From Prasinococcaceae sp. CCMP 1430 (lineage: Eukaryota; Prasinodermophyta; Palmophyllophyceae; Prasinococcales; Prasinococcaceae), in the NCBI GenBank assembly GCA_013416795.1, contig RQSC01000032.1, positions 278,897 through 325,720 of the forward strand: a DNA stretch of 46,824 nt, written 5' to 3'. A program made the position numbers and the translations under genes. The notes under the pieces are model-generated. The model was not told the origin of the DNA, did no database searches, and was given only the letters and a program-made list of their open reading frames with translations. Positions 28,932 to 35,751 of the stretch are shown here, in pieces; position 1 is the first letter of the stretch; each line of letters starts with the position of its first letter.

Positions 28932-30943
28932 TCAGCGCGAGCGCGGTGTGTTAGCGCGGTTCCTGACATCGTGGCCACTATGCCGACCGACCAGCACCAC
29001 CACCCCTGCCGCTGCCAGCGCTGCTGGTGCCCAAGTAGCCAGGGCGCGTTGCCCTCCGCTGTACGACGCGCTGCTCACCTCGCCGGCGCTGGTTGGCCTA
29101 TCTAATGCTTCCTCGCCGCCGTCGACCGCATGAGGCAGCCCGCTGGACCCGGGGAAAGGCACCTGCACGGTGGTATCTATGCTCTCGACCCCCATGGCGA
29201 TCGTCTCCCCTCCTGGCCACGTCACTGAGACGCGAAGGTCGTCCGCCGTAATGCCTGAGTTACCGAGGCCAAAATGCGCCACAGGCTCCATCGACAGAGA
29301 TACCCAGAACCCGCGTCGATGGCATAGGTCGTCGTGGCGCCGCCTTCGACCGCAAGGGACACGGTGGCGCCGCGTGCAGGGGCTCCAGCAGCCGTGAGCG
29401 GCACAATGCGCAGCCAGTGGCGGTCCGGGGCGGCCGCCTTGTACATCGTCAGCGGCTGCGCACCGCTTTCGCCGTGAGAGATGAGTAGCTCCAGCACTCC
29501 GTCCTCGTCAAAGTCTCCAACCGCTGCGCCCGTGCCGAGGCCATCCGCTTCAGCGGCATCACCAATGTTGAGACGCATCCACTCGCCGCTGTCTGAGCGG
29601 GAGAAGAGTCTGTTGTCACCAGGAATGTTGTTGAAGAAGATCTCTGCTCGACCGTCGTTGTCGAAGTCAGCGGCGATCACTGTCCTAACTCGGGAAGGCG
29701 ACGCCATGTCGGCGGTCGCGACGTCCTCGAACGTGCCGTCATCGTTCTGCAGCCACAAGCGATGCTCAGCTTGCCAGTTGCCTGCGGCCACGTCAAGTAG
29801 GCCGTCATCATTCGCGTCGAACACGGCAACGCCGCGGCCGTTGTGCCTGGGGTCGAGGATACCAGCTACCTCCGCGACGTCCGAGAAGGTGCCATCGCCA
29901 TTCGACTTGAACAAGAAGTTTGACGCGTCGCGGCCAGCGCTCATCTCATTGTTGGCGAAGATGTCCATGCCAGGTGTGCCAGCGACCAAGCGCGCCGACG
30001 CGAGCGCACGCCCCCCGGTCGTGCGCGCCACGCCCGCTTCGCTCGCGACGTCGCGAACCGTCAGGTCGCCGGCCGACGAGCGCTCACCCTGGTACAGACG
30101 CATCGGCCCACCGTAATTGGCGACCATCACCTCGTACTCACCCTTTCCAAAGCGGTCGACGCACGCGCACGAGCGGCCCGCGACAAAATTGGCCGAGTCC
30201 TGGTTCACCGGTAGCTCGAAAACGTCGCGCCAACCGTCGGCCGCCGAGGCCGCGCGCGCGAACAGGCGGTCCGAGGTGACTGTCTTGCCACTGTATGCGT
30301 CTGTGTTGAGCACGTACAGCTCCTCGCGGCCATCTCCGTCTACGTCGCACGCTGCAACGCCGATGGCCTTGCGTGAAGCGTCGGCCACGGTCGAGCCACC
30401 GTCCACGGGGTCGCCACTCGCGAGCAGGTCAACGTACGTGCCGCTCCCGGCGTCGTACTTGACCACCTTGTTGGGCGCTTGGAAGCCCGCGACCACCGCC
30501 TCGAAGGCGCCGTCGCCATCCCAATCTGTGACGGCCACTCCGTAGTTGTACTGAGCGGGGTTGTCGTGCGGCATGAAGTCCGCGACAGCAGTGAAGAAGG
30601 GTTCGCCCGCACCGAGGTTGACGGGGGCCTCGCACGACATGCCCGCCACGACCATGCCGCCCGTGCACGCGTCCCAGCTCATACCGCACCTGCTCGTGCT
30701 TTTGCACCAGCCGCAGGGAGAGCCGCGCATGTCGGTTGAACACGCCTCGCAGGTGCCGAGCGCATAGCAGTGACCCGCCGCCGCGGGGGCGGGCGCATAG
30801 AGCAGCAATGCTGCTGCCGCGGCTGCAGTAGTTGCCACCGCCGCGCACGCCGCGGCGCCCGCGCCGCCAACGCAGCGAGCGCGCACAGCCACGCGCGCAG
30901 CCGCCGGCACGCGGCAATGGCCACGGCGCGCGGCTGCCCGCAT
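28932..30943 (-). CDS. PSI / FG-GAP (VCBS) / ASPIC-UnbV membrane protein, CRTAC1-like, with frameshift
   Basis: From the ATG at 30943: an Ala-rich hydrophobic signal (ALLLYAPAPAAAG), a PSI-like Cys domain (CYALGTCEACSTDMRGSPCGWC), a series of FG-GAP/VCBS repeats with Ca-binding loops (VTDWDGDGAFE, CDVDGDGREE, FDANDDGLLD, ADFDNDGRAE, GDFDEDGVLE), and an ASPIC/UnbV domain (YAIDAGSGYLC, HFGLGNSG, VTWPGGETI). A Gly/Ser linker and a single transmembrane helix (WAPAALAAAGVVVLVG) follow. Within the UnbV motif, near 29292, the frame shifts by one base between GSGYLC and MEP. The family expects CQMEP, so one base appears missing. This is either a sequencing error or a true lesion. The product resembles animal CRTAC1 and bacterial UnbV proteins and is probably extracellular. 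Confidence 0.82.
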
Positions 30944-31406
30944 CGCCGCCGCTCCCACCGCTCGCCGCCGCCCTGCCCACCGCGCCACTGTGGCGCCCCG
31001 CAGCCATCGTACCCCCACCCCCCACTCGCACCCCAGCTGACGACGCCACGTCAGTCTTAAAGAGCACAACTCGCGCCACGTCGACGAAAACGGATAAGTT
31101 TCTGTGTTCTGTTTCTCAATTGCACCCTTTTGGTATATTCTGATGATCATTTGCGTTGTTTTTGTCCGGAAACTTTTCGCGAAATTACATTCCGAAAATG
31201 AGATCCTCGAGGAAAGCGCGTGGCGTGCGTGCGTGCTCCCGCGGTGCGCCACACACACGCTGCGCGCAGGCGTCAGTAGGGCGGGAGGTGCCGGGCGGTG
31301 TCGGGATCGACTGCGTGCCTGCGCATGGTCCTGCGGCGCGCTGCGGTGACGGTCGGCTCTCGCGCGGCGGCAGGGGCGGCGGCGGCGGCGGCGCGGCGCG
31401 GCAGCG
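30944..31406. promoter_or_regulatory. Bidirectional promoter region, UnbV protein / CRY-DASH
   Basis: A 463-bp head-to-head spacer with a marked AT-rich island (31055-31210) in otherwise GC-rich sequence. It contains TTTTCGCGAAA (31174-31184), a palindromic E2F/DP-like site, and TGATGATCAT. No telo-box is present. Short frames in it have no family support. Confidence 0.45.
31174..31184. promoter_or_regulatory. E2F-like palindrome TTTTCGCGAAA
   Basis: TTTCGCGAAA is close to the E2F/DP consensus (TTTSGCGC) and is palindromic. It lies about 230 bp upstream of the CRY-DASH ATG. The role is inferred only from motif similarity. Confidence 0.35.
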
Positions 31407-33405
31407 ATGACGGCGGCGCGGCCGGTGGCCGGCGGCGCGCGGCCGCCGGCGCTCGACGCGCTCCTGCTCAACCGCGATGCCAAGGCGGTGCGCTCGTCAA
31501 AGCGCGTGCTGTGTTGGCTACGCCAGGACCTGCGCACACACGACAACGCCGTGCTGCTGGCGGCGGCCGCAGCTGCGCGTGAGGCGGAGGGCGTGTCGGT
31601 GCTGCCCGTCTTTTGCTTCAACCCGAGCACCTACGCGGCGAAGCTGCCGCTGACCGGCGAGGCCAAGACGGGCGCGCGCCGCGCGCAGTTTATGCTCGAG
31701 AGCGTGTCGGACCTCCGCGAGCGGCTGCGTGCGCTGGGAAGCGACCTGCTGGTTGCCGTCGGCGAGCCCGAGGTGGTGCTCGCCGAGCTGGCCGGCGACG
31801 CCCCCGCGGCAGTGCTCACGCACGGCGAGGCGTGCACCGAGGAGCGCGACGCCGAGCGCGCCGTGGCCAAGGCGTTGCTCGCGCGCTGTGGCAACAGCGC
31901 GCTCGTGCGTGTGGAGGGAGGCTTTACAATGTACGATGAGCGTGACCTGCCGTTCGACTTGCGCGCCATGAATGACGTCTTCACGCCCGTACGAGGCAAG
32001 GTGGAGAAGAACTGCGAGGTGCGGCAGGCGTACGCCGAGCCCGCGAGCGGCGAGCTGCCTTTGGGCGGCTTCGCTGGCGCGCCAGGCCTGGGCAGCGAGC
32101 TCCCCTCCCTCGAGGCGATTGGCGTGGATCCCGAGGCCGCCGCCGTGGCACGCGCTGCCCCCCACAGGCTCGCGGCGCTCGACTTCAAGGGTGGCGAGAG
32201 CGCCGCGCTGCAGCGCGTCAAGTACTACCTGTGGGACACGGACAAGGCGAGCACATACTTCGACACGCGCAACGGCATGCTCGGCGGCGACTACTCGACC
32301 AAATTTGAGCCCTGGCTCAGCGCCGGCTGCCTCAGCCCGCGTCACGTCTACGCCGAGCTCATGAAGTACGAGGACAACCGCGTGGCCAACAAGTCCACCT
32401 ACTGGATTCGCTTCGAGCTGCTGGTACGCGACTGGTTCCGCTGGTATGTGTCCTAGCTTGCTGCGACGCCACCCACTGACGCCAAGCTCTCACGCGCCCG
32501 CTCGCTTTTACACCGCCCGCAATGCCTCTCCACGCCGCCTGCTCGCGGGGGCGCCCGTCCGTCGTTGCGCAGTGGCGCGACTTCTTCCGCTGGTGCGTGC
32601 CACATGTGCGCGCGAGGCGCTGAGCGAGCGCTCGGTGCGCGAGCGGCAAATGCTGGCGTGGGTGGCGATTTCCTCGAGCCCTGAGGTCTGGCTCGGTCGG
32701 ACACACCCAGGTGCTGACCCCGTCGCGCGCGCGCGCGCGATGTCCTGCAGGTACGCTCAGAAGCACGGGGCGCGCATCTTCATGCTCTCGGGCCCGGCGC
32801 GCCGCCACGCCAAGTGGCGTGCAGACCGCGCGCTGTTCGAGCGCTGGGTGGAGGGCAGGACTGGCGTCCCGCTCATCGACGCCAACATGCGCGAAATGGC
32901 GGCGACGGGCTTCATGTCGAACCGTGGTCGCCAGAACGTGGCGTCTTACCTTGCGCTCTCGCTTGGCGTCGACTGGCGCCTCGGCGCCGAGTACTTCGAG
33001 TCAGCGCTGCTGGGCTACGACCCAGCTTCCAACTGGGGCAATTGGGCGGCCGCTGCCGGCGTCACCGGTGGGCGCGTCAACAAGTTCAACCCGACCAAGC
33101 AGTCGAGGGACTACGACAAGGACGGGGACTACGTGCGCGCGTGGCTGCCCGAGCTCAAGGACGTGCCCGCCCCCTTCTGCCACGAGCCGTGGCGGCTCAC
33201 GCCGCAGCAGCAGCAGGAGTTTGGTTGCGTCATCGGCGTCGACTACCCGAAGCCGGCCGGCGAGGTCCCCGTGTGGTCGGGCGAGAGCGGCGGCGGCCGC
33301 GGCGGCGGCCGCGGCGGCCGCGGCAAGGGGCGGGGCGGCCGTGGCGGCGGCCGCGGCGCTGGTGGGCGGCGCCAAAAGAAGATCGTCTACCAGTATGACG
33401 ACTGA
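31407..33405 (+). CDS. CRYD: CRY-DASH cryptochrome/photolyase with RGG tail and duplicated exon
   Basis: A DASH-type cryptochrome: flavin blue-light photolyase/photoreceptor, typically repairing CPDs in single-stranded DNA. The photolyase N-domain starts KRVLCWLRQDLRTHDN. DVFTPVRGKVEKNC, GGESAALQRVKYYLWDTD, TRNGMLGGDYSTKFEPWLSAGCLSPR and ANKSTYWIRFELL follow (FAD domain). After the intron(s), exon 32751-33405 continues YAQKHGARIF, WVEGRTGVPLIDANMREM, TGFMSNRGRQNV, LGVDWRLGAEYFE and YDPASNWGNW, and ends in an RGG-rich tail before QYDD. Exon 1 can end at 32443 (reading VRDWFRW) or at 32423 and use a 20-nt exon (reading WRDFFRW). The ATG at 31407 is the first supported; a longer leader in another frame is possible. 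Confidence 0.93.
32424..32443 (+). other. First copy of duplicated 20-nt coding segment (VRDWFR)
   Basis: These 20 nt follow FELL and precede a GTATGT donor. The segment itself begins GTACGC, so it can also act as a donor site after FELL. It aligns with 32573-32592 at matching codons (RD, F, R). Confidence 0.75.
32573..32592 (+). other. Second copy: alternative 20-nt exon (WRDFFR)
   Basis: It is bounded by a gcgcag acceptor and a GTGCGT donor, the commonest donor in this window. It encodes WRDFFR plus two bases and has the same length and phase as the first copy. The family consensus at this place is FELLWRDFFR, which only this copy provides. Confidence 0.75.
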
Positions 33406-33521: not shown

Positions 33522-35751
33522 TCACATGCCGCGGTAGAGCTTGACGTACTCCTCGGCCGACCGCGCCCACGAGTTGTCCACCGCCATGCATCGGTCCGCT
33601 AGCGCCGACCACTGCTCCTCGCGCTCCTTGTACATCGAGATGGCACGCTGCAACGCGCCCTCGATGTCGCCCTCGCCCGCGCCGTCGAAGACGAAGCCCG
33701 TCCCGGCAGCGGGGTCGGCGTCCACGTCGACCACCGTGTCCGCCAGGCCGCCCGTGCGCCGCACGAGCGGGGCGGCGCCGTAGCGCTGCGCCACCATCTG
33801 CGTCAGGCCGCACGGCTCGAACATGGACGGCACCAGCACGACGTCGGCGGCGGCGTACAGGAAGTGCGAAAGCGCATCGTTGTACATCAGGAGGCAGCGG
33901 CCCGCGCCGCCTTCTCGCATCTCGGCGGCGAGGCCCTCGAACTCACCGGCGAGGTGGCCCGATCCGAGCAGCACGAACTGCGCGCCCATGGCCTCCGCGC
34001 GCGCAGCGGCGTGGCGGATGAGGTGCACGCCCTTCTGCGGCACCAGCCGCGACACGCACACCAGCAGCGGCACGCGCTCCCCGTCCTCGGGCACGTCAAG
34101 CCCCAGCCCGCGGCGCACGTACTCCTTGCACAGCGCCTTGCCGTCCTCGGAGACGCTGCCGTAGCGCGTGGGCAGGCACATGTCCCTCCGCGGATCCCAC
34201 GACGCCGTGTCGATGGCGTTCAGCACCCCCGAGTACTTGGTGCGGTACGTCGTCAGCGTCTTGTTGAGCCACCCGCCGCCGCCGCCCAGCGTCTCCTCGC
34301 GGTACGAGGGCGACACGGTGGTGACCGCGTTGGTGTAGACGATGCCCGCCTTAAGCAGGCTCATCCGCTCGGGATTGTGCCCGATCGTGCGCTCGTCCAC
34401 CGCCTTTTCGACCACCGCGTAGCTCTCACCGTCGAGCCCCGTGTAGTCGAGCTCCTCCGCCTTGACCTCTCCCGTGTGGTCCAGGTTGTGGATGGTGAGC
34501 ATCAGCTTCTGCTTGTCGAGCCCCATCTCGTGGTACATGTCCCAGTACAGGAGCGCCGCGGCGCAGGTGTGCCACTCGTGCAGGTGGATGACGTCCGGCT
34601 GGCGCATCGACTCGCGCAGCAGCTCGAGGCTGGCGCGGCAGAAGAAGAGGTACGCCTCGCGCTCGTCATAGCCGCCGCCGTACACGCGCTCGCCGCGGAA
34701 GAAGTGGTTCTGCGGCCGGAGGAGCAGCACGCGCACGCCCGAGATCTCGCCCACGAAGGCGTCGACCATCACCTCGCCCCCACGGTGGTACGAGCCGTAC
34801 GTGCGCTCGTGCGTGAGGTTGTTCACCGCCGATTCGGGGATGCACTCGTAGAAGGGCAGGATGACCTCAACGTTGTGGCCGCGCGCCGAGCACGCGCGCG
34901 AGAGGCCCGTCACCACGTCCGCCAGGCCGCCCACCTTGGCCACCGGCGCCATCTCGGCGGTGATGTGCACCACGTGCAGCGGCGACGCGTCGGGCTCGGC
35001 GGTCACGATGGATGCGGGCGGAGCGGCGAGCGCCTCCACGCACTCGGGCCGCTCCCAGAACGGCGTCGCGTCCTCGGGCGACGGCCACGCGATGTCCTCG
35101 CGGCGCATCACCGCGATGGGCTCACCCGCGTCGGCCGGGGACGCCGCGCCGTCCGGCATCGCCTCGGGCGCGACAGCGGGCGGCGGCGCCACCCTCGCCG
35201 CTCGCTCCTCCGCGAGCCTCGCCTTCTGCTCCGCCGCCTCCGTCCGCGCGATCAGGTCGGCCTTCTCCGCCAGCAGCTCCTCGTACAGCTTGCGGTAGCG
35301 CTCCAGCCGCTCCGCCGCGCTCTCCTTTCCCTCCGCCGTGCTCTCCTCTCCCTCCGCGGACTCCTCAGCCTCCGCGGCGTCGGCCCCTGCCAGCGGCTCA
35401 TCGGTCTCGGCCTTGGCGGCCTCGTCCTTCACCTTAGCCTTCTCCTTCTTCGCCTTCGCCTTCTTCGCCTTCGCCTTTGCCGCCGGCGCTTCTGCCGCGG
35501 CCTTCTTGGCGTCGGCGCCGTTCTTCTTCGCGGGCGCCTGCTCGGCCTCCTGCGCCTCAACAGCCGCCTCGGCCGCCTCGGCCGCCTCAACCGGGCCGTC
35601 CTCTTCCTTTTCCGCCGCCTCCGAGGCCGTCGCCTCCACCTCGGACGTCTCCGTCTCGACGCGCGACCCCGACGCCCCGGAGCGCACCACCACCGTCCTC
35701 GCTCGCGCGCCGCGCGCGGGAACGGAGCGGCGAGCCGCCGCCGCCGCGCGC
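33522..35751 (-). CDS. SS4: Soluble starch synthase, class IV-like, 5' end unresolved
   Basis: ADP-glucose:glucan glucosyltransferase (GT5) of plastid starch synthesis. SSIV-type enzymes help initiate granules. An acidic Ala/Glu/Lys-rich N-terminal part leads into a coiled coil (AERLERYRKLYEELLAEKADL...AEEQKARLAEERAARV type). The GT5 domain begins VHITAEMAPVAKVGGLADVV (KxGGL motif). Blocks PDVIHLHEWHTCAAALLYWD, LTIHNLDHTG, VTTVSPSYREE, GVLNAIDTASWDP, VSRLVPQKGVHLIRHA, VLVPSMFEPCGLTQMVAQRYG and RRTGGLADTVVDVD follow the SSIV order. The exon appears to start at 35751 after an acceptor whose second base is an N (35752). The first exon with the ATG and transit peptide lies upstream and could not be fixed. 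Confidence 0.88.

Follow-up and report, generated by a model that had tools for sequence, protein, structure and literature searches.

The CRY-DASH gene of Prasinococcaceae sp. CCMP 1430 carries two versions of the same 20-nt coding segment, 149 nt apart (start to start), and raises the question of which of them enters the mRNA and whether splicing may choose between them. The CRY-DASH class (class 0 photolyases) is characterised by FAD and antenna binding and by the repair of CPDs in single-stranded DNA. The gene occupies positions 31407-33405 of the plus strand of the window, i.e., of the whole stretch of 46,824 nt that was analysed (68.8% G+C), and all coordinates given here are those of the window. 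We refer to the form with copy 1 as the V isoform (or V form) and to that with copy 2 as the W isoform (or W form), from the first residue that each copy encodes. The coding segments are the following:

31407-32423, plus strand: CRY-DASH exon 1 (photolyase domain to FELL), ending in phase 0
32424-32443, plus strand: exon copy 1, GTACGCGACTGGTTCCGCTG, encoding VRDWFR; it prolongs exon 1 in the V isoform and makes up the 5' end (20 nt) of intron A in the W isoform
32573-32592, plus strand: exon copy 2, a 20-nt microexon, TGGCGCGACTTCTTCCGCTG, encoding WRDFFR, the family consensus
32751-33405, plus strand: last exon (YAQKHG..., FAD-binding domain, RGG-rich tail and stop)

When compared with solved structures, the W-form protein matched 6kii, 2vtb/2j4d (AtCRY3) and 1np7 (Synechocystis) at 1e-122 to 1e-127, with structure matches spanning residues 28-538, and the other photolyase structures at 1e-48 or weaker. 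The gene product is classified as a CRY-DASH (class 0 photolyase) on the basis of this closest full-length similarity to solved CRY-DASH proteins. Its C-terminus bears a long RGG/GGR-rich tail (33276-33402) that resembles RNA/nucleic-acid-binding tails. The CRY-DASH locus is single in the 24.5-Mb, 145-contig assembly; a second photolyase/cryptochrome gene, with its own 115-nt intron, is found on contig C44 (120037-120712; FFYQ/YFRCYSPVAF), and the genome contains 10 FAD_binding_7 matches. In the window, CRY-DASH is flanked by an FG-GAP repeat protein (integrin-alpha-like beta-propeller; 29222-31078, minus strand), which is divergent from it, and downstream, on the opposite strand, by a starch/glycogen synthase (Glyco_transf_5; 33522-35750, minus strand) with a low-complexity, Ala/Glu/Lys-rich N-terminus and one N at about 35753.

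The initial annotation had described the two copies as equal in length and phase, and every coordinate that it gave holds. The copies are identical at 15 of 20 positions, and the five differences are confined to two codons (TGG/GTA and TTC/TGG), so that copy 1 differs from copy 2 by a W-to-V change and, three residues further on, by an F-to-W change, with no silent changes. The repeat, which pairs 32427-32450 with 32576-32599, covers 24 nt at 83% identity. When copy 1 with its donor was compared with the remainder of the region, only 1 of 5000 dinucleotide shuffles reached the observed repeat score; given this rarity, and the fact that copy 2 restores the family motif in frame, the repeat reflects real homology and not chance. 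The homology of the copies stops at the exon borders: the intron stretches that follow each copy, outside the repeat, are no more alike than shuffled sequence (local score 17, shuffle mean 17.8). Introns A and B, compared with a possible tandem duplication of exon plus intron in mind, do not align. A second copy of intron A, as expected from a transposon or introner origin, was sought across the assembly and none was found. An exon-end repeat of this kind was also absent from all 26 reference introns described below, and therefore such a repeat is no common trace of intron gain in this genome.

Taken alone, each copy joins in frame to YAQKHG at 32751, as had been claimed, and each of the two resulting forms is open and encodes 563 amino acids. 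A frame check showed that the form with both copies, the form with neither copy (copy 2 skipped) and the unspliced form all run into a frameshift or a stop, which bears out the proposal that joint use of the copies breaks the frame.

In order to judge the splice signals, we collected 26 reference introns, called by homology, from other genes on many contigs of the assembly (chaperonins, Rab/Ran, actin, a photolyase, kinases and ubiquitin-conjugating enzymes); branch points were assigned by motif. All 26 contain a CTGAC-type branch motif (CTGAC in 24, CTAAC in one and TTGAC in one). Donors are mostly GT(A/G)CG(T/C) or GTGAGT, with C preferred at +4 (GTRCGY); the donor model built on them is small, with 26 sites. 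The distance from donor to branch A ranges from 59 to 424 nt, that from branch A to AG from 19 to 95 nt and the intron length from 94 to 482 nt. In 25 of 26 introns the AG used as acceptor is the first one located more than about 8 nt past branch A. The signals of the W isoform that were compared with this set are:

32424-32572, plus strand: intron A, 149 nt
32424-32429, plus strand: donor 1, GTACGC, whose use skips copy 1; it scores 9.15 and exceeds 16 of the 26 reference donors
32476-32480, plus strand: intron A branch point motif CTGAC, with branch A at 32479
32567-32572, plus strand: GCGCAG, acceptor of copy 2
32593-32750, plus strand: intron B, 158 nt, with donor GTGCGTG, branch A at 32717 (CTGAC) and acceptor TGCAG

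Copy 2 is thus preceded by GCGCAG and followed by GTGCGTG. The claim that copy 1 begins with a usable donor agrees with the score of GTACGC, a sequence that also serves as donor in 2 of the 26 reference introns. The intron A branch A lies 56 nt from donor 1, slightly below the shortest reference distance (59 nt), and 93 nt from the acceptor; the sole AG before the acceptor sits 7 nt after branch A, and no usable AG occurs in between. The intron B donor scores above all 26 reference donors, its branch A is 125 nt from the donor and 33 nt from the acceptor, and the acceptor is the first usable AG. When complete intron-like structures were searched for by a rule derived from the reference introns, with a minimum donor-branch distance of 55 nt, a value chosen to admit intron A (56 nt), five were found on the plus strand of the 46.8-kb window, two of which are exactly introns A and B, and none in 10.3 kb of single-exon CCT (chaperonin) coding sequence. 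Donors as strong as those at 32424 and 32444 occur four times in the same 10.3 kb. Since introns A and B fit the signals of this genome and make up two of the five structures in the window, the W mRNA with its 20-nt microexon is very probably the main form.

The V isoform would depend on a further donor, located immediately after copy 1:

32444-32449, plus strand: donor 2, GTATGT, whose use keeps copy 1; it scores 8.85 and exceeds 15 of the 26 reference donors
32444-32750, plus strand: 307-nt intron, the only one of the V isoform, with branch A at 32717; length within the reference range (94-482 nt)

Donor 2 is as strong as donor 1 (8.85 vs. 9.15), both being mid-range among real donors. However, the distance from donor 2 to the intron A branch point, as placed by motif, is 36 nt, against a genome minimum of 59 nt among the 26 introns, and published work names a donor-branch distance of less than about 50 nt as one way in which exons exclude each other (PMC7969005, PMC5740500). 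Because donor 2 is too near branch A 32479, splicing from it should jump to 32751 and give the V form. Judging from the motif positions, joint use of the two copies would be blocked twice, by branch-point geometry and by frame. Among 189 two-step changes of the copy-2 donor, 9 (about 5%) keep a score of at least 8.8, which may be read as a weak hint that donor 2 is maintained. On these sequence grounds, the chances that V mRNA is made at a detectable level appear to be even. An 18-nt inverted repeat (32307-32324 and 32616-32633, 89%) connects exon 1 with the part of intron B just after the copy-2 donor. As a selector based on RNA structure it was discarded, being only mildly unusual (1.2% of shuffles) and lying in conserved coding sequence. 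In the predicted fold, which is GC-rich, both donors are mostly paired.

One of the two residues that differ between the copies is a key tryptophan of the pocket for the DNA lesion, the pyrimidine dimer. Residue W340 of the W form falls, in the alignment, on the E. coli PhrB Trp numbered 278 in the gene, which we take to be Trp277 of the crystal numbering, with the first Met removed; this supports the match to E. coli Trp277 proposed for the W of copy 2. This pocket Trp is present in 80 of 80 prokaryotic CRY-DASH proteins (78 counted in the alignment and two unmatched ones, L104 and L109, inspected separately). At the second changed position, the 78 aligned proteins have Y in 62 cases, F in 16 and W in none. 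Taken together, the invariant Trp and the Y or F, never W, at the other position identify copy 2 as the conserved version, in keeping with its description as the family consensus. Likewise, the W isoform has the ELLWRD(F/Y)F motif with the pocket Trp and the V isoform lacks it, and the V form scores 8 bits below the W form against the family model. The prokaryotic genome contigs gave bacterial and archaeal CRY-DASH only, and the viral contigs, searched with exon 1 and the CRY-DASH alignment, encoded no relative.

The initial annotation had also read the change from Trp to Val as an altered substrate cavity. Copy 1 does encode Val at this position. On the other hand, exon 1 ends in phase 0, so that any GT donor placed there reads through as GTN, that is, Val. 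The Val follows mechanically from the GT, as the automatic price of a donor by which copy 1 can be skipped, and an adaptive value need not be assumed. The donor does not impose the Phe-to-Trp change in copy 1.

The explanation that we consider best, with a probability of roughly 0.5, is a two-copy duplication with splicing choice by donor competition. An old local duplication would have doubled the exon segment encoding the pocket Trp, and competition between the donors at 32424 and 32444 would decide which version is spliced in. Binding of U1 at 32424 would lead to the use of branch A 32479 and of the AG at 32572, to the inclusion of copy 2 and to the removal of intron B, yielding the W enzyme. 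With U1 at 32444, the branch point at 32479 would be too close, and branch 32717 and the AG at 32750 would be used, yielding the V isoform of the same length. The V protein would be expected to have weak or no CPD repair, and it is unlikely that it has a selected role. We are similarly doubtful of the most far-reaching version, a splice switch by which a unicellular alga makes, at equal length, a Trp repair form and a Val cryptochrome-like non-repair form, with branch-point geometry enforcing exclusivity and the skipping donor sitting inside the very codon that is replaced.

The serious rival is that copy 1 is a relic of a short local duplication, or of a duplication that accompanied the gain of intron A, and that only the W mRNA is productive, the use of donor 32444 being splicing noise at most. 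W splicing alone suffices to restore the conserved protein, and copy 1 has two changes at conserved sites with no silent ones, as relaxed constraint would allow. The flanks hold no residual duplication, and the duplication may have covered only about 24 nt; if it was never longer than that, unmatched flanks are no evidence of constraint. A relic fits less well with a copy 1 that keeps a donor as good as real ones, an open frame and 15 of 20 identical bases, and with a homology that ends at the exon borders; none of the 26 reference introns has such an exon-end repeat. The Val forced by GT, together with an F-to-W change at a position that is only Y or F in 78 relatives, nevertheless keeps a decaying relic plausible, if somewhat short of an even chance.

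It could also be supposed that the V form, with one 307-nt intron, is the main or only mRNA and that copy 2 is a dead intronic repeat. This would be the simplest gene model, and donor 32444 is good and matches canonical U1 better. However, it is copy 2, and not copy 1, that keeps the residues of all 80 relatives, it is flanked by two of the only five genome-typical signal sets on the plus strand of the window, and it is preceded in intron A by an AG-free run of about 84 nt, while such runs occur at only 2.5% of window positions; this makes the possibility very unlikely. Least credible of all is an assembly or sequencing artefact, such as collapsed alleles or a chimeric repeat. The draft assembly does contain some N, including the one at about 35753, but the locus is single, the copies differ at five of 20 bases with both frames intact, and full, distinct sets of signals mark intron A and intron B.

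If splicing does choose between the copies by donor competition, the arrangement can be compared with known systems of mutually exclusive exons (MXE). As in such pairs, the copies are neighbouring and homologous, of like length, phase and frame, joint inclusion and joint skipping both cause a frameshift, and the donor-branch distance (36 nt by motif) is in the range of steric exclusion. Lacking an acceptor, copy 1 cannot be skipped as an exon; it is an alternative-donor extension of exon 1, so the pair is not strictly a classical MXE pair. The copies would work like an MXE pair with branch-point exclusion without being a strict member of the class. The closest likeness is with exons 4a/4b of vertebrate OGDH, which have been experimentally shown to be mutually exclusive via distant branch points, the branch point lying 25-41 nt from the copy-1 donor and far from its acceptor (PMC7969005). 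Here too an exon is duplicated and the branch point is near the copy-1 donor (36 nt) and 93 nt from the acceptor. In OGDH, however, copy 1 is a separate exon with an acceptor, whereas in the algal gene it would prolong exon 1 and starts with the very donor by which it would be skipped. A branch point too close to the donor of the upstream exon is also described for alpha-tropomyosin exons 2/3 (Smith and Nadal-Ginard, 1989, as cited in PMC7969005), in that case in an animal gene under tissue-specific control. The features used to select candidate human MXE clusters, namely similarity, same length and same frame (Hatje et al., 2017; PMC5740500), are found here, as are two of the three mechanisms listed there (frameshift on joint use and a donor-branch distance below 50 bp); the human criteria also demand junction reads, and the algal pair, of 20 nt, is a candidate in this sense. 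As for the pocket, Arabidopsis CRY1, a non-repairing plant cryptochrome, has the aliphatic Leu296 at the photolyase Trp277 position (PMC6378743), and residue 340 of our query aligns with residue 296 of the CRY1 structure 1u3c. The V isoform would likewise have an aliphatic residue there, but CRY1 belongs to another family and carries other changes, whereas the V isoform is otherwise still DASH. The literature searches made here turned up no report of alternative exons for CRY-DASH or of MXE in an alga.

A relic copy 1 would still leave a gene model with a 20-nt microexon, which automated annotation could easily overlook and so predict a wrong V protein. The near-invariant branch motif and the donor preference could make a strong ab initio intron finder for this genome. 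If Trp and Val pockets are indeed obtained from one gene by splicing, steric mutually exclusive splicing, best known in animals, would extend to an alga, and in a minimal layout, with the skipping donor inside the exon copy itself. It has long been debated whether CRY-DASH acts in repair or as a signalling cryptochrome; with such a gene, the two roles could be separated within one cell.
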